In this document: positions 1,152 through 43,109 of the stretch, piece after piece
Numbering within the stretch: the first letter of the stretch is position 1
Layout of the letters: each line of letters starts with the position of its first letter
Assembly (NCBI RefSeq): GCF_003856835.1
Contig: NZ_CP034145.1
Span: 2,790,001-2,854,000, forward strand
DNA length: 64,000 nucleotides
Source of the DNA: Haloplanus aerogenes
GTDB taxonomy: Archaea; Halobacteriota; Halobacteria; Halobacteriales; Haloferacaceae
Reading direction: 5' to 3'
Notes under the pieces: generated by a model
Database searches by the model: none
Told to the model about the DNA's origin: nothing
Seen by the model: the letters and a program-made list of their open reading frames with translations, nothing else
Translations under genes and position numbers: made by a program

Positions 1152-1300
1152 ATCCGTATCTCGACGCCTCGTGACCTAATGGTTTTGTCCGTCGCTGAAC
1201 GGATAGTTATTGGATAAACCGTATACTGCAATACAGAATCGAGGGTGCGCGTCCCAACCGAAAAGCGAAAGTCCAGCCCTGCTCGTACGTGCCCGTCTGG

Positions 1301-1942
1301 ATGGTATCCACCCGACGACTTCGACTGCTGTCCCTGTGTCTCGGTCTCGGTGCGCTCGCCGTACTCGGGTGGCAGTATTCGGTGGCCGACCTGCTCGCCT
1401 ACATTCGGGGCGAGAATCGGTGGGTCGTCGTGTTCGGCCTCGGTGTCTTGTATCTCGTGCGCCCACTGCTGCTGTGGCCGCTCAGCGTGTTCTCCGTGTT
1501 CATCGGCTACGTGTTCGGCTTTCCCGTCGGCGTCCCGCTGGTGCTTGGAGGGACGCTGCTCACCTGCCTCCCGCCGTTCCTCGTCGCGACGCACTTCGGC
1601 CACGAATTCGGTCGACTCGCAACCCACGGTTCGGCGCTGGTCGAGACGACCGGCGAACTCCGGGGAATGGTCGCCGCACGCCTCTCGCCTGCCCCTGCCG
1701 ACGCGGTGTCGTACGGGGCCGGCATCGCCGGCGTGCCGCTCCGGAGCTTCGCGCTCGGCACACTCGTCGGTGAACTGCCGTGGGCGCTGTTTTACGTGCT
1801 TCTCGGTCGCTCCCTTCGCACCTTCTCGGCGGCAGGGATCGAACAGATCGACCTCCGTCTGCTCCTCCTCGCCGCGCTCGTCTCCGTCCTCCTCGTCGCA
1901 CGGCCGCTCTACGAATACCTCCGGGACCGACTCCGATTCTAA
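1301..1942 (+). CDS. TVP38/TMEM64 (DedA-like) membrane protein
   Basis: A 213-residue integral membrane protein of the TVP38/SNARE-associated family. It has a hydrophobic N-terminus, then the family core GYVFGFPVGVPLV followed by a proline-rich turn (TCLPP), an amphipathic middle section and two more membrane segments. The substrate is unknown; DedA/VTT relatives act as lipid scramblases or in membrane homeostasis. I chose the ATG at 1301 over the one at 1289 because it begins a natural MVSTRRLRLL start. Its stop overlaps by 4 nt the stop of the convergent flippase gene. A paralogue lies at 42483-43109. Confidence 0.8.
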   Translation: MVSTRRLRLLSLCLGLGALAVLGWQYSVADLLAYIRGENRWVVVFGLGVLYLVRPLLLWPLSVFSVFIGYVFGFPVGVPLVLGGTLLTCLPPFLVATHFGHEFGRLATHGSALVETTGELRGMVAARLSPAPADAVSYGAGIAGVPLRSFALGTLVGELPWALFYVLLGRSLRTFSAAGIEQIDLRLLLLAALVSVLLVARPLYEYLRDRLRF

Positions 1943-2922
1943 CCGTCGACAGGCGTGGAGTTGCGTCGATTGCGGAGGAACCGGTAGAGGACGAACACCG
2001 CCGTTCCAAGAAGGGCACCGAACCAGAGCGTGCCGACGCGGATGACGAGCGTGGAACTGACGGCGACCGTCCGCGAGTAGCCGAGGACGACGAGCAACCC
2101 GACCATCGTCGCTTCGGCGGCGGCCAGGCCGCCGGGAAGCAGGCTCGCAGCGCCGACCACGGAGCCGAGGCCGAACACGAACAGCGCGAGGAGGAGCGAA
2201 GAATCGACGACGAACCCGTTCAGGACGATCCACAGCGCGACCCCTTCGAGCCCCCACGCGACGACGCTGATGCCCATCGAGACGACGAGCGGTCGGAGCC
2301 GGAAGAGCGTGTACGTATTGTCGTAGAACTCCCGTACGTCGTCGGCGTATCCGCCGATCACCGGAATCGTCTCGAGGCCGTCGAGCAGTCGCAGACAGAG
2401 GGTGCGCCACTGGATGAGCATCAGCCCGCCGAAAAACAGTGCCGCGACGACTACCAGCGTCGTCGACGACTGCTGATAGACGACGAGACCGAGGCCGGCG
2501 AACGCCATCAGCGCGAGCAGGTCGGTGACACGCTCCGCGCCGACGACCGACGCCGTTCGATTCACGGCGACATCGTGGAGGTCCCGGAGGAACCACGCCT
2601 TCCAGACTTCGCCGGCCTTGCCCGGGGTGACGACCATCATGAGGCCGCTCACGAACACCAACAGACTCGATCTGAGGGGCACGTCGATGCCGAGTTCGTG
2701 CAGGTAGAACTCCCACTTCAAAAATCGGACGCCGTAACTGACGGCGACGAGTCCGAACACGGCGCCGATTCGCCACCACTCGAGGAGCGTGAGCGCATCG
2801 ACCACCGCATCGGCGTCCCCAAAGAGGAAGAGACCGAAGAACACGACGACGGTCAACAGCGCTGTGACCCAGAGACCGTGTGTTCGAACCGCGCGTCGCA
2901 CACGGGGGAGAACGCCGCTCAT
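1939..2922 (-). CDS. Flippase-like membrane protein (LPG_synthase_TM / UPF0104 family)
   Basis: A 327-residue protein with about eight membrane segments. It carries the family hallmarks TPGKAGEVWKAWFLR (near residue 80) and SLLPGGLAAAEATMVG near the C-terminal end. Family members flip or transfer lipid-linked groups; the archaeal function is unproven. The start is fixed by an ATGA overlap with the stop of the PHP gene, making it the last gene of a three-gene operon (UbiA, PHP, flippase). In this context I infer transport of a lipid-phosphate sugar across the membrane. Confidence 0.8.
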   Translation of the reverse strand: MSGVLPRVRRAVRTHGLWVTALLTVVVFFGLFLFGDADAVVDALTLLEWWRIGAVFGLVAVSYGVRFLKWEFYLHELGIDVPLRSSLLVFVSGLMMVVTPGKAGEVWKAWFLRDLHDVAVNRTASVVGAERVTDLLALMAFAGLGLVVYQQSSTTLVVVAALFFGGLMLIQWRTLCLRLLDGLETIPVIGGYADDVREFYDNTYTLFRLRPLVVSMGISVVAWGLEGVALWIVLNGFVVDSSLLLALFVFGLGSVVGAASLLPGGLAAAEATMVGLLVVLGYSRTVAVSSTLVIRVGTLWFGALLGTAVFVLYRFLRNRRNSTPVDG

Positions 2923-3557
2923 CGCTGCAGGAGAGCGAGGGCGTCGTTGAGTTTCGTGGCGACGTGCCCCGACAGGTACCCTCCACGGCCGCCAGTCTCG
3001 GTCGTGCCTGCGAGAATCGCGTCGAGAACGGGCCCCCCACACTCCGTGTAGGCGCGCCCGATCTCCATCGGGAAGTGGGCGTCGCTGCCGCCTGTGATCG
3101 CGAGGTCGTGTTCGGCTGCGAACGAGCGGGCCGCCCGGTTGTAGCGCGAAAAGACGCACCGCGAGTTCGTCACTTCGACACCGTCGACCGCGGCGGCAAT
3201 CCGATCGAGATCCTCGGCGTAGTATTCACGGAGCCTGTCGAAGGGGTGTGAGAGGACGGCCACGCCACCCTGCTCGTGAACGTGATCGACGACCGTGAGT
3301 GGATCCGCTTTCGGCGGCACCTCGTCGACACCGAGGGCGAGCAGGTGCCCCTGCGAAGTCGTCACCTCGACCCCCGGAACGACGGTGAGGGAGTCGGGTG
3401 CGAGCCTCGCCACCGCGGCGTAGCCGTCGAGCGTGTCGTGATCGGTGATGGCGATACCGTCCAGACCGGCGGCGACCGCGGCGTCGACGATCCCGGAAGG
3501 CGTCGCGCGCGAACACGGCGACGCGTCGGTGTGGACTTGCAAATCGAAGCGGCTCAT
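2919..3557 (-). CDS. PHP-domain phosphoesterase
   Basis: A 212-residue PHP metallo-phosphoesterase. Visible motifs are DLQVHTDAS at residue 5, ITDHDTLDGY, VPGVEVTT with a following GH, LSHPFD, and GSDAHF near residue 160. The usual first motif is HxH; here the first histidine is glutamine (QVH), so one metal ligand is altered while the rest are present. Both ends overlap neighbours by ATGA (UbiA upstream, flippase downstream), so it is translated as part of that operon. The substrate is unknown. Removal of the 5-phosphate from a lipid-linked phosphoribose would fit the operon, but that is inference. Confidence 0.85.
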   Translation of the reverse strand: MSRFDLQVHTDASPCSRATPSGIVDAAVAAGLDGIAITDHDTLDGYAAVARLAPDSLTVVPGVEVTTSQGHLLALGVDEVPPKADPLTVVDHVHEQGGVAVLSHPFDRLREYYAEDLDRIAAAVDGVEVTNSRCVFSRYNRAARSFAAEHDLAITGGSDAHFPMEIGRAYTECGGPVLDAILAGTTETGGRGGYLSGHVATKLNDALALLQR

Positions 3558-4462
3558 CGAATCACCTGCACGACGAGAGCCGGGACGTTGTACAGCACAC
3601 CGGCGGCGGTGAGTCCCCACAAAAAGAGATTCAGGATCGACGGGCGGTCGGTCAGCAGATACTCGGGTCGGCCGGCGATGTCGGTCGTGTAGACGAGGTG
3701 GTGGTACCGAAAGGCGCCGAAGAAGGCGAACGGGAGCGTCAGCATCATCGTATGACTGGTTCGTGAGAAGGAGTACAGCGAGTACGCCATTAACAGCGTT
3801 GCCATCGTCATCACGAGGAGTTGATCGAGGTTTCCCTCCGAATACGCGTCGAGCACCACCCGAGTGTCACGGGGATCGGTGGCGAGTTCCAGTTCGCTCC
3901 GGCGCTTGCCGAGGGCGAGCACCAGCGCGAGGAGGAAGGTGCTGACGATCAACCACGGACTCAAGAACACGCCGATGGCGACGACACCGGCGACTGCGCG
4001 GAGCACGAACCCGATGGCGACGACGAGAATATCGACGAAGACGACGTGTTTGAGATAGAGCGAGTAGAGCGCATTCTGGGCGAGATAGACGCCCAAGACG
4101 GCGAGAAACAGGGGGCCAAGACTGTAGGCAGCGACGAGACCCGCGACGACGAGTGAGCCGCCGAAAGCGACGGCAATCGGGACGGATACCTGTCCGCTGG
4201 CGATGGGGCGGTGTCGTTTCTCCGGGTGGTTTCGATCCTCCTCCAGGTCGCTAACGTCGTTGAAGATGTAGGCCGCGCCGGCTATCGCGGTGAACGCCGC
4301 CACGCCGACGAGGAGTTCGATCCACGCGCCGAGATTCAAGAGGTTCTTCGAGAAGACGATTCCCAGAACCATCACGCCCTGTTTGTACCACTGCCACGGA
4401 CGGAGTGCCCGGCACAATCCAGTGACCGTGGCGACTGGATTGGTCGCGGAAAGTTCCGTCAT
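3554..4462 (-). CDS. UbiA-superfamily transferase resembling decaprenyl-phosphate phosphoribosyltransferase
   Basis: A 302-residue polytopic membrane enzyme. The first Asp-rich motif reads NDVSDLEEDRNHPEKRHRP (near residue 67), very close to the NDVRDVEADR.HPTKRFRP motif of mycobacterial DPPR synthase, with a second motif GKRRSELEL and the FGAFRYHHLVY segment typical of that branch. Those enzymes move phosphoribose from PRPP to polyprenyl phosphate, unlike menaquinone or heme O UbiA proteins. It heads an operon with PHP and flippase-like genes. A TATA element lies at 4490-4497. The DPPR-like branch is clear from sequence; the exact product is inferred. Confidence 0.85.
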   Translation of the reverse strand: MTELSATNPVATVTGLCRALRPWQWYKQGVMVLGIVFSKNLLNLGAWIELLVGVAAFTAIAGAAYIFNDVSDLEEDRNHPEKRHRPIASGQVSVPIAVAFGGSLVVAGLVAAYSLGPLFLAVLGVYLAQNALYSLYLKHVVFVDILVVAIGFVLRAVAGVVAIGVFLSPWLIVSTFLLALVLALGKRRSELELATDPRDTRVVLDAYSEGNLDQLLVMTMATLLMAYSLYSFSRTSHTMMLTLPFAFFGAFRYHHLVYTTDIAGRPEYLLTDRPSILNLFLWGLTAAGVLYNVPALVVQVIR

Positions 4463-4487
4463 TCGGTTGTTCGGATTTCCGACAGCG

Positions 4488-4498
4488 GATATATAAAT
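4488..4498 (-). promoter_or_regulatory. TATA box of the UbiA-PHP-flippase operon
   Basis: On the minus strand the stretch reads ATATTTATATA, about 28-31 nt upstream of the UbiA start codon at 4462, in an otherwise GC-rich region. This spacing fits an archaeal box A with a leader of only a few bases. Confidence 0.6.
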
Positions 4499-4517
4499 AT
4501 TCGGTCACGGCGTCAGG

Positions 4518-4940
4518 TTAATCCGCTCCGGCGAGATACTGGTCACGGGTTCGGCCATCGGAGTATAGATCCGCAAGGACGTGCGTGTACACCGACGCGA
4601 GCGTACAGATCGCCCAGTAGCGGCTCACGGGGTAGAGGAAGGCAACGAGTGCGCCGCCGAGGAGGAGGTGACTCAGAAGCCGCTGATCGCGCCAGACATC
4701 GCCGTGGTCGAATATCGACGCCTGATCGGCGAAGATCCGTGACGGGTCGCGGAGACACCGCCGGAGGCTGGTCCAGTCGCCACGGTTCAGGCGAGCGATT
4801 ACGAAGTGATCGAAGTCGATTCCGACGCCGAGGGCGACGAAGTACACCCACAGGAGGATCCGAGAGTGCTGGGCGGGGGCAGCGGCGGCGACGGGGATGC
4901 CGAGGACGGCGGCGAGGAGTGCGTGGTTTCGAGAGTACAT
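4518..4940 (-). CDS. Membrane-bound metal-dependent hydrolase (YdjM/DUF457-like)
   Basis: A 140-residue membrane protein with conserved polar residues inside hydrophobic segments: IDFDHFVIARL (residues about 40-50), SHLLLGG and YTHVLADLYSDG near the C-terminus. This Asp/His pattern is typical of the small archaeal YdjM-like metal-dependent membrane hydrolases of unknown substrate. It is transcribed in the same direction as the UbiA operon, 55 nt upstream, but that operon has its own TATA box. A phosphatase-like role in the lipid-sugar locus is possible but not shown. Confidence 0.7.
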   Translation of the reverse strand: MYSRNHALLAAVLGIPVAAAAPAQHSRILLWVYFVALGVGIDFDHFVIARLNRGDWTSLRRCLRDPSRIFADQASIFDHGDVWRDQRLLSHLLLGGALVAFLYPVSRYWAICTLASVYTHVLADLYSDGRTRDQYLAGAD

Positions 4941-4988
4941 CGTAGATCAGTCTCGACTAGCGGTGACAGCGGGAGATGGAGAGAGGAA

Positions 4989-4996
4989 CAATAAAG
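4989..4996 (+). promoter_or_regulatory. TATA-like box of the epimerase-glycosyltransferase operon
   Basis: CAATAAAG stands about 29 nt upstream of the epimerase start codon at 5022, the right distance for a nearly leaderless transcript. Confidence 0.45.
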
Positions 4997-5021
4997 ACAC
5001 TGCGTTAGTCAGTCCGACACA

Positions 5022-6113
5022 ATGAGTGAGTCGGATCAAGAGACGTCTCCGGTATCTCACTACGACTCGGTGGTAGTGACGGGCGGAACGGGGTTCCTCG
5101 GCCTGCACACGTGTCAGCACTTCGCAGAGCGGGGATATGACGTGACGGCGCTGGATCTGAAACCGTTCGACGCGGCGGACGACACGGCAGGTATCGACTT
5201 CGTCGAAGCGGACGTTCGCGACGAAGACGCCGTCGTCGAAGCGTTCGAACGGGCGAACGCCGACGTGGTCGTCCACACGGCGGCAGCCCTGCCCCTCTGG
5301 GACGACGCCAAGATTCGCGATGTGACGATCGGCGGGACGCGCTCCGTCCTGTGGGCCGCGAAGGAACTCGACATCGACCGCGTCGTCTACGTCTCCTCGA
5401 CCGCGGTCTACGGAACCCACGACACGCATCCGATCACCGAGGAGTCGCCGCTGGACGGCGTCGGGCCGTACGGCGAGGCGAAGATCGAGGCCGAAAACGT
5501 CTGCAGGGACTTCCGTCGAATGGGAATGTGCGTCCCCATCGTCAGGCCAAAGACGTTCATCGGCCCACAGCGCCTCGGCGTCTTTCAGGTGCTCTTCGAC
5601 TGGGTGGAAGACGGTGCGAACGTTCCCCTCGTCGGCTGGGGGAACAACCGGTACCAACTCCTCCACGTCAAGGATCTGGTGCGGGCGATCGAACTCCTGT
5701 TCAGCCGCGACGAAGGTGAGGTGAACGACACGTTCAACGTCGGTGCGACGGAGTACGAGACGATGAAAGAGGACTTCCAGGCGTTGCTCGACGAAGCGGG
5801 AACGGGGAAACGCGTCGTCGGGACCCCCGCGCCGCTGACCGTCCTCGCGCTTCGAGTCCTGAACGAACTCGATCTCTCGCCCCTCTACCCGTGGGTGTAC
5901 GAGACGGCCCACGAGGACTCCTACGTCTCCGTCGAGAAACTCCGTGGACTCGGCTGGGACCCCGAATACTCGAACGAGGAGGCCCTGATCGACACCTACC
6001 ACTGGTACCTCGAAAATTACGAGCCGACACAGGAGCAGACGGGCAAGGACCACCGCGTCGCGTGGGACCAGGGTGCGCTCACACTCGTGAAGTACGCTTT
6101 CAAGCAGTTCTAG
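5022..6113 (+). CDS. NAD-dependent epimerase/dehydratase (extended SDR)
   Basis: A 363-residue extended short-chain dehydrogenase. The Rossmann motif TGGTGFLG is at about residues 19-26, the SST active-site serine segment and the YGEAK catalytic Tyr/Lys are near residues 127 and 152, and WGNNRYQLLHVKDLVRAI is the usual sugar-nucleotide epimerase stretch. The substrate is probably a sugar nucleotide or lipid-linked sugar. The next gene begins directly after the stop codon with no gap, so the epimerase probably acts with that GT39-type glycosyltransferase. Confidence 0.85.
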   Translation: MSESDQETSPVSHYDSVVVTGGTGFLGLHTCQHFAERGYDVTALDLKPFDAADDTAGIDFVEADVRDEDAVVEAFERANADVVVHTAAALPLWDDAKIRDVTIGGTRSVLWAAKELDIDRVVYVSSTAVYGTHDTHPITEESPLDGVGPYGEAKIEAENVCRDFRRMGMCVPIVRPKTFIGPQRLGVFQVLFDWVEDGANVPLVGWGNNRYQLLHVKDLVRAIELLFSRDEGEVNDTFNVGATEYETMKEDFQALLDEAGTGKRVVGTPAPLTVLALRVLNELDLSPLYPWVYETAHEDSYVSVEKLRGLGWDPEYSNEEALIDTYHWYLENYEPTQEQTGKDHRVAWDQGALTLVKYAFKQF

Positions 6114-7583
6114 ATGGATATCGACCGCAGAGAGGCGACCGTCGTCGGTTCCCTCATCTCGCTCGGTGCGGCGTTGCGAGTCTTCCGGATCGGGACCGAG
6201 AGTCTGTGGCTCGACGAAGCCGCGTCGGTCAGCTACGTCACGACGATGAGCGTCCGCGAACTCGTCGTCAGAATCCCGTGGACGGACAACAGCCCACCGC
6301 TGTACTACCTGTTGCTCGACGCGTGGACGGAGCTGTTCGGCGTTTCGGAAGCCAGCGTCCGACTGCTGTCCGCCGTCTTCGGAATCCTCTCGATTCCCCT
6401 GCTGTACCTCATCGGAAAGCGGCTGTTCGGCGAGCGCGTCGGGCTACTGAGCGCCGGGATACTCGCGCTCTCACCCTTCCAGCTCTGGTACGCACAGGAA
6501 GCGCGAGCATACAGTTTGCTGTTGCTCCTCTCGCTGCTGTCCTACTACTACTTCCTCCGGGTGGATGGCGACGGAACCGCAGCCGACACGGTCGGATACG
6601 TGGTGTTCTCGGTCTTGCTCGGCTACACGCACGTGTTCGGATTCTTCGTCATTCTCGCGCAGTCGCTCTACGTCCTGCTCAGATACGTCCCCGCAACCGA
6701 GGGGCTCGTCGGGGAGGAAGTCGTGGCGTGGATCAAACATCAGTCGCTGATCGGCCTCCTGCTCTCCCCCTACGTGGTCGTGTTGCTGGTTAGAATCGTC
6801 GCCGAGCAGGGGGACGTGTGGGTGTCGATGCCCACCCTCAGGAGTATCGTCGCCGCGCCAGTCGTCTACTTCGGGACGACGGGCAGCGTCCGCCGGAGCA
6901 TCCCGATCAACCTCCTGATACTGGCCGTTCTGGGGGGACTGACGCTGCTGTCGCTGACGCCGCTTCTCCGGCAGTTGCGAGCAGGCGAGTGGCCATCGCC
7001 CGACACCGAGAGCGGGTACGCCACGCTCAACGCACTGCTGTGGTTTCTCGTGCCGATCGTCGTGCCGATCGTGCTGTCGGTCCTGCTCACCCCGATATAT
7101 CTTATCCGGTATACGATTCCCGCGTCGGCGGGCCTGTATCTCCTCGTGGCGAAGGGGATCGAGACGATTCCGCGGCGCAACGTGCGACTGGTCGCGGCCG
7201 GACTGATCGTGCTGACGCTCGTCCAGCCACTCCCGATCCTGTACGCCGACGACCAGAAAGAGCAGTGGCGGGAAGCGGCACACGCGATCGAGTCGAACGC
7301 CGACGAGGGGGATCTGATCGTGATCAGCGCGACGTACGTGCAGACGCCGTTCGAGTACTACTACGAAGGGAAGCTGGCGGTGGTGCCGGTCGAGGAGGAC
7401 GTGTCGGCGACGGCCCTCCGGTCGAACACACGGGGTCACGACACCGTCTGGTTGATCACGTCACACGTAAAAGACCACGAGCGGGAGCGACTGAGGGACC
7501 TGCTCGACGACGACTACGTCCGCGTGGACGAGATTCAACTGAATCGGATCAGGATACAGAAATTCAGCACTGCGTCGGCATAG
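6114..7583 (+). CDS. GT39/ArnT-like membrane glycosyltransferase
   Basis: A 489-residue GT-C fold protein with about ten membrane segments. The first extracytoplasmic loop carries LWLDEAASVSYV (residues about 29-40) with the catalytic-type acidic residue, followed by TDNSPPLYYLLLDAW and RLLSAVFG, as in dolichyl-phosphate-sugar transferases. Such enzymes use a polyprenyl-phosphate sugar on the outer face of the membrane to modify proteins or lipids. The start codon abuts the stop of the epimerase gene (TAGATG). It ends 27 nt before the convergent wtpB. Confidence 0.85.
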   Translation: MDIDRREATVVGSLISLGAALRVFRIGTESLWLDEAASVSYVTTMSVRELVVRIPWTDNSPPLYYLLLDAWTELFGVSEASVRLLSAVFGILSIPLLYLIGKRLFGERVGLLSAGILALSPFQLWYAQEARAYSLLLLLSLLSYYYFLRVDGDGTAADTVGYVVFSVLLGYTHVFGFFVILAQSLYVLLRYVPATEGLVGEEVVAWIKHQSLIGLLLSPYVVVLLVRIVAEQGDVWVSMPTLRSIVAAPVVYFGTTGSVRRSIPINLLILAVLGGLTLLSLTPLLRQLRAGEWPSPDTESGYATLNALLWFLVPIVVPIVLSVLLTPIYLIRYTIPASAGLYLLVAKGIETIPRRNVRLVAAGLIVLTLVQPLPILYADDQKEQWREAAHAIESNADEGDLIVISATYVQTPFEYYYEGKLAVVPVEEDVSATALRSNTRGHDTVWLITSHVKDHERERLRDLLDDDYVRVDEIQLNRIRIQKFSTASA

Positions 7584-7610
7584 CGCGGGCACGAACGGCC
7601 GAGCGTGTGG

Positions 7611-8423
7611 TTACTGCCACGGGTTCGACGCGACGGTGTGGAGGATGGCCAGCGCCAGCACCGAGACGGCGACGAGGACGATGGCGACCGGATACGCGGC
7701 GTCGAGGCCGAGCGAGACGAACGACACCCAGATCTGGACGGGCATCGTCCGGGGGTAGTACGCGAGCATCATCGTCGCGCCGAACTCGCCCATCGCGCGA
7801 GCGAACGCGAGCGTCACGCCCGCGAGGATGCCCGGCCCGGCCAGCGGGAGCGTGACGCGCCGGACGGTCGTCAGTCGGTCCATCCCGAGGACGCGCGAGG
7901 CGTGTTCGAGCGACCGGTCGACGCCCTCGAACGCCGCCTTCGCCGTCACGACGACGAACGGCGACGCGACGAACGTCTGGGCGAGCACCACGCCCGCGAG
8001 CGACCGCGTGAGCGGGAGGCCCGCCGCGGCCGCCGCGTCACCGAGGAGCGTGTTCGGTCCGACCACTGTGAGGAGGACGACCCCACCCACCGTCGGCGGC
8101 AACACGAGGGGAAGCACCACGGCCGCGAGGACCGCATCCGTCCACCGCGTGTCGGCGCGGGCCAGCCAATACGCGAGCGGCAGGCCGAAGACGGTGCCGA
8201 CGAGGGTGCTGAGCGTCGCGGAGAGCACGGACGTAGTCACCGCGTTCACGACTGTCGGCTCGGTCAGACTGGCGGCGACCGCACCCGGTGGCGCCGAGAG
8301 GAACAGCGACGCCAGCGGCGCGAGATAGTAGCACAACAGCAGGCCGCCGAGGGCGAGCGTGACGGTGAGCCAGTCGAGACGGAGCGAGAGCCGTCGGCGC
8401 ATCGATTGGGCCGACATCGTCAC
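7611..8423 (-). CDS. wtpB: Molybdate/tungstate ABC transporter permease
   Basis: A 270-residue permease with six membrane segments and a clear EAA loop (SRVLGMDRLTTVRRVTLPLAGPGI near residue 170). It belongs to the ModB/WtpB/CysT branch. The GTG start at 8423 overlaps the stop of the binding-protein gene as GTGA; an in-frame ATG at 8417 is an alternative. No ATPase gene follows: downstream is the end of a convergent glycosyltransferase gene, so the ATP-binding subunit must be encoded elsewhere. Molybdate or tungstate specificity rests on the binding protein and the adjacent Tfx regulator. Confidence 0.85.
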   Translation of the reverse strand: MTMSAQSMRRRLSLRLDWLTVTLALGGLLLCYYLAPLASLFLSAPPGAVAASLTEPTVVNAVTTSVLSATLSTLVGTVFGLPLAYWLARADTRWTDAVLAAVVLPLVLPPTVGGVVLLTVVGPNTLLGDAAAAAGLPLTRSLAGVVLAQTFVASPFVVVTAKAAFEGVDRSLEHASRVLGMDRLTTVRRVTLPLAGPGILAGVTLAFARAMGEFGATMMLAYYPRTMPVQIWVSFVSLGLDAAYPVAIVLVAVSVLALAILHTVASNPWQ

Positions 8424-9418
8424 CGGAGGATCGTCACGTCCGACACCGGTTCACGGAGTGATCTGGCGTCGGCAGTCGTCGCTCGCCGCACCTCGGGCGG
8501 CACCTCGCCCCGGTAGCGCGGGAACCCCTCACGGCGCAGGAAGCCCGAGTCGTCCAGATAGTCGCCGGTCGTGTGGACGACGAAGACCGACCGCGCGGCG
8601 TCGCTCGGCTTCCGGATCGTCGAACCGTAACTGATGAGGTCGCCACGGATCTCCTGTCCGCTCGGCAGCGTGTAGGAGACGGTCGAATACCGGTCGGCGT
8701 GGTCGGGGTTGCTGAGGTCGATCCGGTCGGGGAGGTCGACGTAGTCGTAGCCGCGTTCGACGGCCATGTTTCGGTAGGCGAAGGCGGCGTCGATAGCACC
8801 GGTCTCGAACTTGCTGAGCAACGCCGTCTCGGGGTAAATCTGCCGACGGGCCGGAATCGTCTCGTGGAGCGCCGGCGCGTCGTCGTAGTAGCGAGCGGCG
8901 AGTTCGAGGGAGAAGAGCGTCCGATACCCCAGCGGATCCTGATCGGGGTCGGTACGGCCGAGTCGGACGGCACCGTCGGTCAGCGGTTCGTACCACTGTT
9001 CCGTACCCGCGTCGGCGACACGCCGACCGCCCTCGGTGTCCGGGTTGTACGCGAGGACGACCGCGTTGCTCGTGAAGGTCGCGTACCACGGCGGCGAGAG
9101 CGGGTTCTCGAAGAGCGCGGTGTCGGCGACGGTAAGGATGTCGGGATCACGTTTCCCCGCGGCGACCATGCGCGCGACGGTCGCCGAGCCGTGGGCTTCG
9201 ACCCGGATGGGCACGTCGACGGCGGGAGTGAGCCCCGACTCCAGGGCGTGCTGAAGGCTCCCGGCGGCGAGAATCGCGACCGTCAGGGTCCGGCCGCCAC
9301 CGTCGCCGGCAGTGCCCGCCCGCGCGCCCCGCCCGACACAGCCCCCCAGTCCCACCGCCCCCAGCGCGCCGACCCTCCGCAAGAACGCGCGACGGGAGTG
9401 GGTGGGGTTCTCGTCCAT
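8420..9418 (-). CDS. wtpA: Molybdate/tungstate-binding lipoprotein
   Basis: A 332-residue extracytoplasmic solute-binding protein. It has a twin-arginine signal (SRRAFLRR) and a lipobox-like LGGC near residue 27, so it is a Tat-exported lipoprotein. AHGSATVARMVAAG and DPDQDPLGYRT match the WtpA/ModA family oxyanion-binding loops. It is the first gene of a wtpA-wtpB pair and is divergent from a Tfx-type regulator. The 59-nt divergent spacer carries an inverted repeat. Confidence 0.85.
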   Translation of the reverse strand: MDENPTHSRRAFLRRVGALGAVGLGGCVGRGARAGTAGDGGGRTLTVAILAAGSLQHALESGLTPAVDVPIRVEAHGSATVARMVAAGKRDPDILTVADTALFENPLSPPWYATFTSNAVVLAYNPDTEGGRRVADAGTEQWYEPLTDGAVRLGRTDPDQDPLGYRTLFSLELAARYYDDAPALHETIPARRQIYPETALLSKFETGAIDAAFAYRNMAVERGYDYVDLPDRIDLSNPDHADRYSTVSYTLPSGQEIRGDLISYGSTIRKPSDAARSVFVVHTTGDYLDDSGFLRREGFPRYRGEVPPEVRRATTADARSLREPVSDVTILR

Positions 9419-9436
9419 AGAGTCGTGTACTAATGG

Positions 9437-9458
9437 TTGAGAAAAAAGTTTATCTCAA
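9437..9458. promoter_or_regulatory. Inverted repeat in the wtpA/tfx divergent promoter
   Basis: TTGAGA (9437-9442) and TCTCAA (9453-9458) form a dyad with a 10-nt AT-rich spacer inside a 59-nt spacer that is much more AT-rich than its surroundings. It lies about 20-40 nt from both start codons, so it overlaps the expected TATA elements of both genes. It is a candidate operator for the Tfx protein or another Mo/W regulator. Confidence 0.55.
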
Positions 9459-9477
9459 ATGATTTTGTTTTAGTCGC

Positions 9478-9903
9478 ATGGTCTCGGCCGAATCGACGAC
9501 GCTGACCGACCGACAGGTGGAGGTGCTCGAACTCCGGGAGCAGGGGCTCACCCAGCGTGAAGTCGCCGAGCGACTGGGGAGTACGGGGTCGAACGTGAGT
9601 GCCATCGAGCGCGCGGCGGAGCAAAACGTCGAGCAGGCCCGGCGAACGCTGCAGTTGATCCGGACGATCCGCTCGCCCGTCCGCCTGACCGCCGACACCG
9701 GCACGACGTTCGACGACCTAGTCGACACCATCTACGACCGGGGCGACGAGGACGGCGTGAAGATCGCCTACTGCCGACCGGAACTCTACGCCCACCTGTT
9801 CGGGCAACTCGAACCGTACACGACGCGGAATCGCCTCGACAGGGAGATCGAAATCGGCCTGACCCGCGACGGCGAGGTGAAGGTGTTCGTCCCCGACCAG
9901 TAG
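9478..9903 (+). CDS. Tfx family DNA-binding protein
   Basis: A 141-residue transcription factor. The N-terminal helix-turn-helix (residues about 8-50: TDRQVEVLELREQGLTQREV, then AERLGSTGSNVSAIERAAE) and the C-terminal domain are typical of Tfx, first described as a protein binding the promoter region of the molybdenum formylmethanofuran dehydrogenase operon in a methanogen. It is divergent from wtpA, so control of molybdate/tungstate uptake, and of itself, is the natural inference. Confidence 0.88.
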   Translation: MVSAESTTLTDRQVEVLELREQGLTQREVAERLGSTGSNVSAIERAAEQNVEQARRTLQLIRTIRSPVRLTADTGTTFDDLVDTIYDRGDEDGVKIAYCRPELYAHLFGQLEPYTTRNRLDREIEIGLTRDGEVKVFVPDQ

Positions 9904-34410: not shown

Positions 34411-37353
34411 TTAGTTGTCGCGCCGAGCGGCCAGCAGCGCAGCCGCGATGAGCGCGATGACCGCGACGATGGCACCGAAGCCGGGACCGCCGCCCTCAGT
34501 GGGCGTCGGCGTCGCCGTCGCCGTCGGTTCCGGCGTCGGTTCCGGCGTCGGTTCCGGCGTCGGTTCCGGCGTCGGTTCCGGCGTCGGCTCCGGCGTCGCG
34601 GTGTCCGTCGGCGTCGGTTCCGGCGTTGCCGTCGGTTCCGGCGTCGCCGTCTGGACGTTCTGGACGATCTCTACCTCGACCGTGTCCGAGTTGTAGGAGT
34701 CGTCGGCCTCGAGCGTGTACGTGCCCGTCTGCACGTCCTCGAGCTCCAGCGACACCATGTAGGAGCCGTCGTAGCTCCACTCCTCGGTGGTTGCGAGGGC
34801 GACGGAGTCACCCTCTTCGGTCAGCAGTTCCACGGTAATCGAGTTGTCGTCCGGACGCAGGTTCGTGCGGCCTTCGACGACCATCGTGTCGTCGACGCCC
34901 ACCGGGTTCACACCGGAGGCTTCCATGCCGTCGGGGTAAACCGAACCGATCGTCGTCCGGGAGTCAGCGAGGCGGAACTGCTGCGTGACCATGCGGTCGT
35001 CGCTCGCAACAGCCTCGGTCGTCTGGTCCAGGAGACGTGCGCGGGCCTGACTACCGGTCAGCGAGTCACTGTCCAGGTTGCTCGCGAGGGACTGGAGACG
35101 CGAGTACGCGTCACTGCCCGACGTGGACAGACCTTCACCGAACTGATCGTCGCGGCCGGCGGTCATCGCGTGCGCACTGACCTGACCTTCGACGAGGTCG
35201 CTACCAACGTTGAGGTCCTCTTCCTCGAACGTGTTGTCGTCGTCGACGGAGAGGTCAGTGTAGTGGACGTTACCGCGCTCGTCGATGAAGATGAACGCCA
35301 CGGTCTGGGAGCCCAGCGCCGTGCCGGTCACGTTCACCACGCGGTCGTCGGTGGAGACCTGCCCACCGATCGTCTGGATGTTGGCGTCCAGTTCCGTGTC
35401 GGTGACGCGCAGCGACTTCTGGCTGCTCGTCCCCGTGTTGAACGTGGAGACGTTCACGTCGGAGTCGATGCTGCCCGTCCCACCGACGTCGGCCGTGTCG
35501 ATCACGCCGAAGCGGTACGTACCGGGCTGGGAGAGGAGGTCGTTCCCGTCACCGTCGCCGGCGGAGAGAACGAGGTCCTCCTTCTCGAACGTGTTGTCTG
35601 CGTCGACGTTCAGCGAGGTCTGAGTGATACCGTTGTCACTCCGTCCGTCGAGGTCGACGAGCTGGTAGTCGCCCTGGCGGCGGACGTAGAAGGCAACGTC
35701 GTCGATACCTTCCGACGCCGTACCGTTCAGGTCGACTTCGCTACCGACAACGTACGTGTTGCCGGGCTGGTTGATCTCGACGTCACCCTGCTCGACCGTG
35801 AGCGAGGGATCGTCCTCGAGGCGGCTCGAGATGGCTGCGCCGTCGATGGCGGAGCCAGTCGGCGCAGTCGAGTTCTGTGCGTAGAGGTTGACGTCGACAC
35901 TGCTGTCGTCGAGGTTGGTCGTGTCGATCTGACCGATGCCGACACCCGTGTCGTCGTCAATCTCGACGACTGCGTAGGCGTAGCCGCCGTTCGTAAGTCG
36001 GGAGCCCTTCGAGACAACATCTCCGACGTTCCGGAAGATGCTGTTGTTCGCGGTCGGGGACTGGGTCTGCGAGCGGAACTCGTCGGACTCGATGGTGACG
36101 ACGTGGAAGTCGCCAGCGTTCGAGCCGCGGATCCTGAAGGTCACGTCCTCACCGCGCGTGACGCGCGACGAGTCGAGATCGAGGGACACGTCGTCGTCAC
36201 CGGTGACGGTGACGGTCGTGCTCTGGCTGGCCTCACCGAAGTCGAGGTCGTCCGTGCCAGCGAGCGTGATCGTGAACGTTCCCGTGTTGAGGTCCGAGAG
36301 ATCGAGGTCCCAGTTGACCTCGTTGCTACCGGCGCCCATCTGCCCAACGTCACTCGCGGTCCGAGTCGCCGGGTCGGACGTGCCGCCGGGGTCGTCGTTA
36401 CCCGTGATGGCGTCGCCAGTCACGTCGAGACCGTCGTCGTTCTCGACGGTGACTTCGAGGTCCTCGGCGTCCTCGTAGTTCCAGGAACCGACGACCGTCA
36501 GTTCACCAGAGCCTTCGTTATCGTCGCCCTGCGGCACGGAGCCGCCGGCGATGTCAGCGCCCTGCGCGTTCTCCACGTCGAGCGTGGTCACGCGCGGACG
36601 CTGGACGGTCACGCCATCGGAGCCGGAGGCACCGTCGGTCGTGTAGCGACCGGTTGCCTGGTCCTGCGGGACGTCCGGGACTTCGAGGGGCACACCCTCG
36701 GCGTCACCGGCCGTCTTCACGATGCCACCCGAGAGGGTGCCACCGAGTTCGAGGCCGGACTCGCCCTGGAAGACGGTCGCACCGGGGTAGATGACACCGG
36801 TACCGTCGGCGGTGTTGAAGTCGCCACCTGCGCCGTCGCCACGGTTGTCAGAACCGCCGGCGCTAGCAGTGACGTCGAACCCGGGGTCCGTCGGGGCACT
36901 GCCGACAGCCGCCGTCGCGGCCAGGGTTCGGGGGCCAGTGGAAGCTCCAGAAGCGTCAACATTGACCACGATTTCCAGATCCTCAGATCCGGAGGCACTG
37001 GTGTTGATGCCGATCTCAACGTCACCACCACCAGTAACCGTAGTGTTGTTGACCGAGAATCCACTGCTACCCTGGAATGCCGCGCTCTCGACGCTGTTAG
37101 CCGAGACGCCGCTAACTCCAGAGTAAGTGAGCGTTATTGTGTCTGTACCATCTGCACCGCCGGTGACCGAGGTGAAAGTGACCGTTTGGTCAAAGCCAGG
37201 ATCACCGGTGGGAACGTCGGTGGCAGTAGCGCCACTGTCACCACCATAATCCGCAGCAGCCGTCCCCGAAAGCGCGACGGTGCCCGCGAAAACGGAGAAC
37301 ACCATCAGCGCCGCGAGGATTACTGCGCGGGCCTTGTCGTTATAGTCTGTCAT
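34411..37353 (-). CDS. csg: S-layer glycoprotein with PGF-CTERM anchor
   Basis: A 980-residue surface-layer protein that forms the cell envelope. Residues 1-33 are the haloarchaeal surface-glycoprotein signal (AVILAALMVFSVFAGTVALS, cleaved near GTAAA). The mature part is acidic, beta-rich and has several NxS/T sequons (NNTTV, NTSAS, NNSIF, NSTAP, NGTAS, NVSTF). Near the C-terminus a Thr/Pro/Glu-rich region (TPEP repeats) precedes GGGPGFGAIVAVIALIAAAL and ARRDN, the PGF-CTERM signal processed by archaeosortase A and replaced by a lipid. The start at 37353 is fixed by the signal peptide. Confidence 0.92.
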   Translation of the reverse strand: MTDYNDKARAVILAALMVFSVFAGTVALSGTAAADYGGDSGATATDVPTGDPGFDQTVTFTSVTGGADGTDTITLTYSGVSGVSANSVESAAFQGSSGFSVNNTTVTGGGDVEIGINTSASGSEDLEIVVNVDASGASTGPRTLAATAAVGSAPTDPGFDVTASAGGSDNRGDGAGGDFNTADGTGVIYPGATVFQGESGLELGGTLSGGIVKTAGDAEGVPLEVPDVPQDQATGRYTTDGASGSDGVTVQRPRVTTLDVENAQGADIAGGSVPQGDDNEGSGELTVVGSWNYEDAEDLEVTVENDDGLDVTGDAITGNDDPGGTSDPATRTASDVGQMGAGSNEVNWDLDLSDLNTGTFTITLAGTDDLDFGEASQSTTVTVTGDDDVSLDLDSSRVTRGEDVTFRIRGSNAGDFHVVTIESDEFRSQTQSPTANNSIFRNVGDVVSKGSRLTNGGYAYAVVEIDDDTGVGIGQIDTTNLDDSSVDVNLYAQNSTAPTGSAIDGAAISSRLEDDPSLTVEQGDVEINQPGNTYVVGSEVDLNGTASEGIDDVAFYVRRQGDYQLVDLDGRSDNGITQTSLNVDADNTFEKEDLVLSAGDGDGNDLLSQPGTYRFGVIDTADVGGTGSIDSDVNVSTFNTGTSSQKSLRVTDTELDANIQTIGGQVSTDDRVVNVTGTALGSQTVAFIFIDERGNVHYTDLSVDDDNTFEEEDLNVGSDLVEGQVSAHAMTAGRDDQFGEGLSTSGSDAYSRLQSLASNLDSDSLTGSQARARLLDQTTEAVASDDRMVTQQFRLADSRTTIGSVYPDGMEASGVNPVGVDDTMVVEGRTNLRPDDNSITVELLTEEGDSVALATTEEWSYDGSYMVSLELEDVQTGTYTLEADDSYNSDTVEVEIVQNVQTATPEPTATPEPTPTDTATPEPTPEPTPEPTPEPTPEPTPEPTATATPTPTEGGGPGFGAIVAVIALIAAALLAARRDN
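34526..34597. repeat. 12-nt tandem repeat in the S-layer stalk
   Basis: Six tandem copies of GGTTCCGGCGTC (the sixth has one change, GGCTCC). On the minus strand it encodes the repeated TPEP units of the Thr/Pro-rich wall-spanning stalk, where O-glycosylation is expected. The copy number could vary by slippage. Confidence 0.85.
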
Positions 37354-38855: not shown

Positions 38856-40595
38856 TCAGGTGTCCTCGGGCGAATCGAGTTCGACGAGGGCAATGTCTAG
38901 GTGTGAACTCTCCGCGACGACCGTCGGATTCCGATCGTTCACGACAGCCACGCCACTCGTGGTGAGGACCGCGTATCTGATCTGCGGGTCCGTGCGAAGC
39001 CGTTCGACCGAGACTTTCTGCATCGGGCGGTCTGCGTAGAACTGGTACGAGGAGTAGAACCAGACGGCGGCCGCGTTAGGCTGGACGTACACGCGCTCGT
39101 CCGCGGGAACGACGTCGGCGGTTCGTTCACCGAGGCGGCGGAACTCCGTATCGGTCGGTTCGTCGCCGAAGCCAGCCGCGTAGACGGAGGGAGCGCCGAC
39201 GAGCGCACTCACCACGAACACCAGAACGGCGCCGACCGTCAGCCCCCGGGCGAGCGAGCGGACATCGAGCGACACCCCTCCCGGAAGGGAGAGCGATCCG
39301 CGGTCGAGCACGTCCGTGGTCAGCAGCCAGCCGCCGAGACAGACGAGAGTGACGGCGGTCGCGACCGTCCAGTCGGGTGCCAACGGCCCGTCGACCAACC
39401 CACCTGGACCGTAGAGCCGACCGTCGCTCCCGGCCACGACGGCGAGGACGGTGCCCACGACGACGCCGACGGCCGACGGCCGGTAGCCGTCGAGCGCGGT
39501 TGCGACGAGCCACCCCACCGTGATCGCTGCCGGGGCGTACATCGGGAGGATGTACCACGTCTTCGTCCCGAAGAAGGCGAACGGCCCGGCGGCGGCCGCG
39601 GTCCACCAGAGCAGGAAGCCGGGCGTCGCGCTCTCGATGCCGTCGCTCCGGAACGAGACAGCCGCCGCACCGACGCTGGCCAGAAAGAGGAACCACCAGG
39701 GCCGAAACAGCGACTGAAGTTCCGTCGGATATGGATACTCGAAGATCGGCACGAGCGTCTGCCGACCCGTCGAGGGCGTATCGGTACCGACGATACGTTG
39801 CCAGACGGGTTCGAGGAAGATTTCCTCGACGAAGAGATCACCCACGCGAAGGTACACCGCACCCACCCACGACCCGACGGCGACGACGGTGATGGCCGCG
39901 GCGATGCCGACGAATCGCGGGGAGAACCGGTCACGGTAGACGAGGGGAAGCGGGAGGAGCGCGAGGAAGAACACGCCGCCAGCGAACCCTTTCGTCAGGA
40001 GGAGGGCGGCCGCGACGGCACCGACGAGGACGGGAGACGCGTCGTACCGCTCCGTCGCGTGGAACCAGACGAGGGCGACGAGGAGGGAGCCGAAGAAGAC
40101 GTGGAGCATATCCGTGGCACCGAAGCGTGCGGCGTTCGTCCCGACGAGTACCGCCGGCGTCGTCAGGAAGACGGCGGCAGCGACGAGACCGGCCGCTGGT
40201 CCGTAGAGCCGTCGGCCGAGGACGTACACGAGGACGGTGACACCGACTGCCGCCGTGGCGGACGGCAGGCGAACGGCGAACTCGGTCGGGCCGAAGACGC
40301 CGATGGAGAGCGCTTCGAGCCAGATTGCGAGTGGTGGCTTCTCGAGGAACGGCGAGGCGTGAATCGTGTCGAACCCGGCGAGGTGCGGGACCAGCCAGTG
40401 CCCCTGCTCGACGGCGTGGCGAGCGGCGTTGGCGTAGAACGACTCGTCCCACCACCACAGCGGCCGCTCCCCGAGTCGATAGAAGACGACAGCGGTGGCG
40501 ACGACGAACACGACGCCGGTCGGGGCGTCGACAAACGGTGTGCGCAGGCGGTCGATGACCGACTTCACCGACTGGCTCCAACCCTCTGAGACCAT
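38856..40595 (-). CDS. GT39/ArnT-like glycosyltransferase
   Basis: A 579-residue polytopic GT-C enzyme. The first loop has PLWWWDESFYANAARHAVEQ with the catalytic-type DE, then ASPFLEKPPLAIWLEALS, the KPPL motif of ArnT-type transferases. About eleven to twelve membrane segments precede a C-terminal outer domain. It would move a sugar from a polyprenyl-phosphate donor to a protein or lipid on the outer face. It lies 1.5 kb from the S-layer gene, a possible acceptor. The substrate is unknown. Confidence 0.85.
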   Translation of the reverse strand: MVSEGWSQSVKSVIDRLRTPFVDAPTGVVFVVATAVVFYRLGERPLWWWDESFYANAARHAVEQGHWLVPHLAGFDTIHASPFLEKPPLAIWLEALSIGVFGPTEFAVRLPSATAAVGVTVLVYVLGRRLYGPAAGLVAAAVFLTTPAVLVGTNAARFGATDMLHVFFGSLLVALVWFHATERYDASPVLVGAVAAALLLTKGFAGGVFFLALLPLPLVYRDRFSPRFVGIAAAITVVAVGSWVGAVYLRVGDLFVEEIFLEPVWQRIVGTDTPSTGRQTLVPIFEYPYPTELQSLFRPWWFLFLASVGAAAVSFRSDGIESATPGFLLWWTAAAAGPFAFFGTKTWYILPMYAPAAITVGWLVATALDGYRPSAVGVVVGTVLAVVAGSDGRLYGPGGLVDGPLAPDWTVATAVTLVCLGGWLLTTDVLDRGSLSLPGGVSLDVRSLARGLTVGAVLVFVVSALVGAPSVYAAGFGDEPTDTEFRRLGERTADVVPADERVYVQPNAAAVWFYSSYQFYADRPMQKVSVERLRTDPQIRYAVLTTSGVAVVNDRNPTVVAESSHLDIALVELDSPEDT

Positions 40596-42482: not shown

Positions 42483-43109
42483 ATGGACCGTCGCGTGCGA
42501 CTCCTCGCCGGCGTGGGTCTCGTCGTCCTCGTGGCCCTCCTCGGCGTCCTCGTCTCGCCGGGGGCAGTCCTCGACCGGCTGGCGTGGGTGGCGGCCGATC
42601 CGCTCCGCCTGACGGCCGCACTCGTCGTCGTCGCCGTCGTCCGCCCCCTGTTCGCGTGGCCGACGACGCCGCTGGCCGTCGTGGCGGGCTACGGCCTCGG
42701 CCTGCGGGGCTTCCCGCTCGCGCTCGTGTTGGTCGTCGTGACGAGTCTCCCGCCGTACTGGGTGGCGGGGCTCGGGGCGGGTGACGGCTCGGTCGCCGCC
42801 GCGGGCGAGCGACTGGTCGCGGAGACGGGCGACCTGCGGAGCGTCGTCGGGAGTCGCCTCCTGCCGCTCCCGTCGGACGTGGTGTCGGCCGGCGCGGGCG
42901 TCGCGGGCGTCCCGGTCAGGGCGTTCGCGCTCGGCACCGCCATCGGGGAGGTGCCGTGGGTCGCCGCGGGCGTCGTCGCCGGCGCCTCGTTCGGGGCGAT
43001 AGGGGAGGTGTCGCTGTCGGCCGCGATGGACCCGCGGATCGTCGTCGGGGCGGCGGCGCTGGCGGTCCTCGTGTTCGCCGAACCGACCTATCGCCTACTC
43101 CAGCAGTGA
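42483..43109 (+). CDS. TVP38/TMEM64 (DedA-like) membrane protein, second copy
   Basis: A 208-residue paralogue of the protein at 1301-1942: VVRPLFAWPTTPLAVVAGYG aligns with LVRPLLLWPLSVFSVFIGYV, and RLLPLPSDVVSAGAGVAGVP with RLSPAPADAVSYGAGIAGVP, followed by FALGTAIGEVPW / FALGTLVGELPW. Its 3 prime end overlaps the convergent gpmI by 15 nt. The start at 42483 (MDRRVRLLAG) is preferred. Confidence 0.8.
   Translation: MDRRVRLLAGVGLVVLVALLGVLVSPGAVLDRLAWVAADPLRLTAALVVVAVVRPLFAWPTTPLAVVAGYGLGLRGFPLALVLVVVTSLPPYWVAGLGAGDGSVAAAGERLVAETGDLRSVVGSRLLPLPSDVVSAGAGVAGVPVRAFALGTAIGEVPWVAAGVVAGASFGAIGEVSLSAAMDPRIVVGAAALAVLVFAEPTYRLLQQ

Follow-up and report, generated by a model that had tools for sequence, protein, structure and literature searches.

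Does a haloarchaeon make a lipid-linked pentose from PRPP, and which pentose would it be? A group of adjoining genes in Haloplanus aerogenes, whose genome has 3.5 Mb, raises this question. They lie in the window, the whole stretch of 64,000 nucleotides that was analysed. The first-pass annotation had read six of them as a PRPP-to-lipid pentose pathway. Its DPPR-type UbiA, the gene linkage, the non-homologous phosphatase and epimerase and the nearby GT-C transferase are supported; the arabinose step is not. In our reading, with a probability of about 0.75, the cassette makes, exports and uses a pentofuranose linked to polyprenyl (probably dolichyl) phosphate. We infer all the chemical steps, the sugar, the carrier lipid and the acceptor. 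If the reading is true, the making of a lipid-linked pentofuranose from PRPP, so far known in mycobacteria and for some O antigens of bacteria, reaches the archaeal cell surface, where non-homologous proteins carry out the phosphatase and flippase steps.

Gene content, insertion and distribution

All six genes are present where they had been placed (Table 1). The two ATGA overlaps exist, at 3554-3557 (UbiA and PHP) and at 2919-2922 (PHP and flippase), and the GT39 start abuts the SDR stop. Stop-start overlaps or near-overlaps are also seen at the module in other haloarchaea. A seventh gene of the inserted unit, VTT/DedA, was missing from the earlier list. It adjoins the module also in loci L037-L041, L043 and L076. 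Its protein scores 30 bits, below the cut-off, against NF052604 (UptA undecaprenyl-phosphate transporter-like). The small protein of 140 amino acids had been called a YdjM-like membrane hydrolase. It has zero Pfam or NCBIfam matches, and we dropped this unproven name. Its gene adjoins UbiA also in loci L037, L038, L040 and L041.

Table 1. Features of the cassette in the window, with the basis of each assignment.
Feature	Coordinates	Strand	Basis or remark
Inserted cassette	1192..7615		blastn against the empty site of congener G239
Flanks of the cassette			gcvT on one side, ABC permease on the other
VTT/DedA family membrane protein	1289..1942	+	PF09335, 63.9 bits
LPG_synthase_TM membrane protein, proposed lipid-sugar flippase	1939..2922	-	PF03706, 133 bits; TIGR00374, 82 bits
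PHP-family phosphoesterase, proposed phosphoribosyl-lipid 5-phosphatase	2919..3557	-	Pfam PHP plus PHP_C
PHP motif I, DLQVH	3531..3545	-	Gln where the first His is usual
UbiA-family polyprenyl-phosphate phosphoribosyltransferase (PPPRS), predicted	3554..4462	-	Pfam UbiA, NCBIfam, PDB match, residues
NDVSDLEEDRNHPEKRHRP in UbiA, predicted Mg/pyrophosphate binding motif	4205..4261	-	equivalents of Rv3806c N73, D77, K87, R90
Small membrane protein, 140 aa	4518..4940	-	without family match
Extended SDR, proposed lipid-linked ribofuranose epimerase	5022..6113	+	PF01370 (Epimerase), 151 bits; co-occurrence; tree
SDR catalytic YxxxK, YGEAK	5469..5483	+	
GT39-type GT-C glycosyltransferase (PMT_2), WLDE motif, proposed pentofuranosyltransferase	6114..7583	+	PF13231, 56.7 bits

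With blastn, the window is homologous to the congener G239 only at 1-1191 and 7616-9876. The seven genes in the gap, from 1192 to 7615, are therefore best taken as a single insertion, with boundaries drawn from this one congener. At the cassette position, G239 has the ATPase gene of an ABC transporter, and the permease and binding protein of this transporter flank the cassette in the window. A replacement in the opposite direction is possible. The G+C content of the cassette genes is 0.61-0.68, against 0.67-0.72 in the flanks. A decayed SDR-UbiA pair lies elsewhere in the same genome, and genome G066 carries a truncated UbiA. Both point to gain and loss of the module. The unit is mobile and accessory, and therefore it probably diversifies the cell surface. 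It could account for a surface trait that is patchily distributed among haloarchaea.

The survey covered 391 sampled Halobacteria genomes, with a threshold of E <= 1e-30 for the SDR. UbiA is present in 46 of these genomes and in 19 of 86 genera. Carriers of the module include Haloarcula, Natrinema and Halococcus strains. The SDR of the window is present in 44, and all 44 lie among the 46 with UbiA. The remaining two are G066, with only a UbiA fragment, and G328. SDR and UbiA are on different contigs in G303 and G339. The Fisher value for this co-occurrence by genome (3e-56) overstates the case because the sampled genomes are related; the nesting of SDR within UbiA is itself plain.

Gene order was compared in 38 haloarchaeal loci from 36 genomes, and the linkage of UbiA, PHP, flippase and SDR holds across related genomes. 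PHP is present in 38/38 loci, the LPG_synthase_TM flippase in 37/38 and the SDR, within the examined stretch, in 35/38 (one of these 35 copies is broken by stops). Most commonly, the SDR is divergent from UbiA-PHP-flippase. These four genes are the conserved core, which recurs in 35 of the 38 loci. The GT39 and 140-aa genes are outside this core, though inside the inserted unit.

The UbiA protein and the proposed pathway

The UbiA protein had been assigned to the DPPR-synthase type by its motif. This motif, NDVSDLEEDRNHPEKRHRP, is present and typical of its family, and the assignment is supported by the best models, the PDB relative and the contact residues. Three decaprenyl-phosphate phosphoribosyltransferase models (224.9, 191.8 and 140.2 bits; the best, NF008977, is slightly below its curated cut-off of 234) and a HAD-UbiA model (175.7 bits) lead its NCBIfam matches. 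The next UbiA-family model scores 59.3 bits. In the PDB, its only relatives are 8j8j and 8j8k, two entries of Rv3806c (E 1.3e-31).

The residues of Rv3806c that contact PRPP have been reported (PMC10994848). Eight of the 11 compared PRPP/Mg contact positions are identical in the cassette UbiA, and R82 is also retained. Rv3806c N73 and D77 correspond to its N68 and D72. In the alignment, virtually every haloarchaeal copy retains K28, Y70, N73, D77, K87, R90, Y138 and K143. The same eight contacts are found in nearly all bacterial UbiA relatives. The genome has five other UbiA proteins; K28 is gone in all five, Y70 in four and K87 in four. Model competition and contact residues led us to reject a quinone, heme or lipid UbiA assignment. 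The clade check gave no grouping with GGGP or quinone enzymes; in the tree, the other UbiA proteins sit on very long branches and not all on one side of a branch, so the class was taken from models and residues. The unity of the haloarchaeal UbiA group has moderate support (SH-aLRT 86). The cassette UbiA is very probably a phosphoribosyl-lipid synthase using PRPP.

The pathway would then proceed as follows. On the cytoplasmic side, UbiA would load polyprenyl phosphate with the 5-phosphoribose of PRPP, a step that family and active site strongly suggest. The PHP protein would strip the 5-phosphate from the phosphoribosyl lipid. The extended SDR, with bound NAD, would epimerise the lipid-linked ribofuranose. 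The likeliest position is C3, which would yield xylofuranose, but C2, which would yield arabinose, or another outcome is possible. The LPG_synthase_TM protein would flip the lipid-sugar, and a GT-C enzyme, here GT39, would attach the pentofuranose to a glycan or protein outside the cell. Finally, the VTT/DedA protein may bring the carrier, polyprenyl phosphate, back for recycling. These predicted steps are specific and easily assayed.

The wider proposal is tentative and, taken whole, somewhat doubtful. It says that haloarchaea own a mobile lipid-linked pentofuranose pathway, with xylofuranose as the likeliest sugar, whose PHP phosphatase and LPG-type flippase take the place of the bacterial proteins. 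In the open-access papers searched, we found no description of an archaeal pathway of this type, nor any pentofuranose that is well established in the surface glycans of haloarchaea. One GC-MS peak of a Natrialba exopolysaccharide was assigned to d-xylofuranose (PMC12457646), a weak indication that is not tied to these genes.

Phosphatase, flippase and transferase

The PHP fold of the putative phosphatase is supported by its AlphaFold model (mean pLDDT 80). The PDB matches of this model include the RNase AM PHP domain, a Bifidobacterium phosphoesterase and an AMP-bound Chromobacterium enzyme. Residues H9, H40, E64, H104, D159 and H161 are retained. Motif I is DLQ[VTI]H in 38/38 copies read. 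Since glutamine (Q7) takes the place of the first histidine in every copy, the catalysis may be unusual. A defence role of this protein was rejected, with only marginal PADLOC matches (16-21 bits).

Locus L098, from an archaeon in the same phylum (Halobacteriota) but outside Halobacteria, bears on these roles. It has four consecutive genes: UbiA (42%), a HAD::GtrA fusion, an SDR (53%) and GT39 (37.5%). The UbiA, SDR and GT39 are homologous to those of the cassette, whereas the HAD::GtrA fusion differs from its PHP plus LPG_synthase_TM. Because HAD and GtrA stand in their place, the two cassette proteins are best read as phosphatase and flippase. The L098 order lends support to four of the predicted roles: phosphatase, flippase, epimerase and transferase. 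In the Citrobacter system, HAD proteins have been proven to act as the phosphoribose phosphatases (PMC11127046). From gene coupling, the fold and this replacement by a HAD phosphatase elsewhere, we infer that PHP is the 5-phosphatase of the phosphoribosyl lipid. A phosphatase non-homologous to the actinobacterial one had been anticipated, and the PHP protein is supported in that slot. For the LPG_synthase_TM flippase, the PDB sequence search found no solved relative.

The GT-C enzyme near UbiA was confirmed as PMT_2/GT39 in the window cassette. GT39 homologues are close by in 11 loci, the window included. More distant PMT_2 proteins are near loci L072-L074, and PF15971 proteins (DolP-mannose mannosyltransferase family) are near about 16 loci, mostly in f4 genera. 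The transferase varies while the core is constant, which fits a changing acceptor. A PDB sequence search gave no relative of GT39, and its predicted structure, from a two-row alignment, has a pLDDT of 45.

The SDR, the sugar and related systems

The SDR is an extended, GalE-like enzyme: its motifs TGGTGFLG and YGEAK match TGxxGxxG and YxxxK. These motifs and an RPK-F-GP-RLGVF block are kept from haloarchaea to Spirochaeta. In the SDR tree, the proteins of haloarchaea, L098, Spirochaeta and Streptomyces group together (SH-aLRT 99). Next come the 35-38% SDRs of L071, L073 and L074 with rhizobial SDR1 (93), and then phage and Azospirillum proteins (85). Rhizobial clusters have a second clade of SDRs beside UbiA (99) in common with four divergent loci of haloarchaea. 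Those loci may therefore yield a different product, and some systems may carry two epimerases; L071, L073 and L074 are loci with two SDRs.

An epimerase non-homologous to the actinobacterial one, first put forward as a possibility, is supported by this SDR. DprE1 was not found in the 37 module genomes (best 66 bits against a cut-off of 500); the listed matches of its profile cover only about the first 220 of 449 positions and reflect FAD-domain similarity. DprE2 and Rv3807c are absent from the genes of the window cassette. The SDR clade occurs without DprE1/DprE2 in bacterial phosphoribosyl-lipid cassettes, and DprE1/DprE2 neighbours mark arabinose systems. In Citrobacter, a single GalE-like SDR, ORF13, decides by itself that the sugar is xylofuranose and not ribofuranose (Kelly et al. 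2024, PMC11127046). We place xylofuranose first because ORF13 alone gives it there and DprE1 was not found here. By this analogy, with the SDR as a putative counterpart of ORF13, the odds that the sugar is xylofuranose fall a little short of even. Unchanged ribose, arabinose and other possible outcomes share the remaining probability.

In the arabinose version, which the first-pass annotation had proposed, the SDR would invert C2 and the exported donor would be polyprenyl-phosphate arabinofuranose. The entry step would be the same as in mycobacteria, and C2 epimerisation is in principle open to extended SDRs, CDP-tyvelose 2-epimerase being one example. However, DprE1 appears in the 37 module genomes only as FAD-domain similarity, and we set aside a route through DprE1/E2 on this ground. 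An arrangement unlike this one, with UbiA beside DprE1 and a DprE2-like SDR, is found on a Bacteroidota plasmid. Rhizobial D-arabinosylation of Nod factors uses noeC/H/O, described as orthologues of mycobacterial genes. Kelly et al. likewise report that arabinose systems have homologues of DprE1/E2 and xylofuranose systems have homologues of ORF13 (PMC11127046). With this SDR clade found without DprE1/DprE2, epimerisation to arabinose is unsupported, and we consider it unlikely.

Equally improbable is the export of unchanged ribofuranose, with a different substrate for the SDR, for example a nucleotide sugar that goes into the acceptor glycan. Most extended SDRs do act on nucleotide sugars, Citrobacter O1 exports unepimerised ribofuranose, and in most loci the SDR gene is divergent from UbiA and so has its own transcription. 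Nevertheless, the SDR is confined to genomes with this UbiA (44/44), and its clade accompanies UbiA in L098, Spirochaeta and Streptomyces although the acceptor genes differ. Finally, a UbiA donor other than PRPP, from which the whole pathway would make a different lipid, is very unlikely: the score slightly below the cut-off (224.9 against 234) and the replacement of Rv3806c Q135 by N and Y157 by F would fit it, but the residues contacting 5-phosphate, ribose, Mg and pyrophosphate are mostly identical, and N and F are also the majority among bacterial relatives.

We therefore return to a lipid-linked pentofuranose made from PRPP, and read the cassette as a probable archaeal variant of the systems that export pentofuranose in bacteria, one whose phosphatase would be PHP and whose flippase would be of LPG type. 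With Citrobacter youngae O1/O2 (PMC11127046), it would share a UbiA-family phosphoribosyl-lipid synthase, a 5-phosphatase, a flippase and a GT-C transferase and, with O2, a single GalE-like SDR epimerase, all predicted roles here. The hosts differ, an archaeon and a bacterium. The phosphatase is PHP in the cassette and HAD in the three-component system of Citrobacter, and the flippase is LPG_synthase_TM instead of SMR/MATE. The GT-C is GT39 (or, in other genera, a nearby PF15971 protein) against GT136 in Citrobacter; as far as known, the GT39 is not of the GT136 kind.

The mycobacterial decaprenyl-phosphoryl-arabinose pathway comprises Rv3806c, Rv3807c, DprE1/DprE2, Rv3789 and Emb/Aft. Its entry enzyme, Rv3806c, is homologous to the cassette UbiA, with the PRPP contacts kept. 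In contrast, the cassette phosphatase, epimerase and flippase are non-homologous to the mycobacterial ones, and DprE1 was not found in the 37 module genomes.

A plasmid cluster of Streptomyces sp. SAT1 (L086) carries SDR-UbiA, an EEP-family phosphatase and an LPG-type protein downstream. The same SDR clade adjoining UbiA and the LPG-type protein resemble the cassette, while the EEP-family phosphatase and two GT2 transferases do not. A Spirochaeta contig carries SDR-UbiA-GtrA, and a faecal (gut) phage scaffold carries UbiA-HAD-SMR-SDR followed by a GT-C-like protein.

SDR clades next to UbiA

Four divergent haloarchaeal loci (L071, L072, L073 and L074) carry an SDR of a second clade directly upstream of UbiA. 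This SDR clusters with the UbiA-adjacent SDR from rhizobial symbiosis plasmids. The first SDR type is present on these plasmids as well. These are possibly two-epimerase systems.

Three rhizobial plasmid clusters (L088, L089 and L104) contain two SDRs, an SMR transporter, a GMC oxidoreductase and UbiA. In the NGR234 cluster, the UbiA component is a HAD-UbiA, and nodU and nodS lie nearby.

A short phage scaffold (L099), unverified and of human faecal origin, has the full set of UbiA, HAD, SMR, SDR and membrane protein (DUF6044). This set may be a surface-modification cassette.

The PHP family and the probable insertion site

In the PHP family, the proposed 5-phosphatase, glutamine replaces the first metal-binding histidine of motif I. 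We found no exception across 38 haloarchaeal loci.

The congener G239 (L130), which has an empty site, presents an ABC ATPase gene (338 aa) at the precise position of the window cassette. We searched the window genome for this ATPase, and the closest one shows just 48% identity. In the window, the genes for an ABC permease and binding protein occur without a partner ATPase gene.

Other genes in the same genome

The window genome holds a degenerate, divergent second SDR-UbiA pair at a different location (L075). Stops interrupt its UbiA part. In the window, the 980-aa protein and the membrane protein after it were compared by eye, from translation only, and the second VTT/DedA-like protein also by eye.

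Coordinates of the features (window positions unless a contig is named)
Feature	Position	Remark
PHP	2919-3557	
ABC permease and binding protein	7611-9418	
980-aa protein	34411-37353	resembles surface-layer glycoprotein; ~30 kb from cassette
Membrane protein	38856-40595	next after 980-aa protein; resembles another GT-C
Second VTT/DedA-like protein	42495-43109	similar to cassette's VTT/DedA gene
Second SDR-UbiA pair	G000:C1 ~779837-781021
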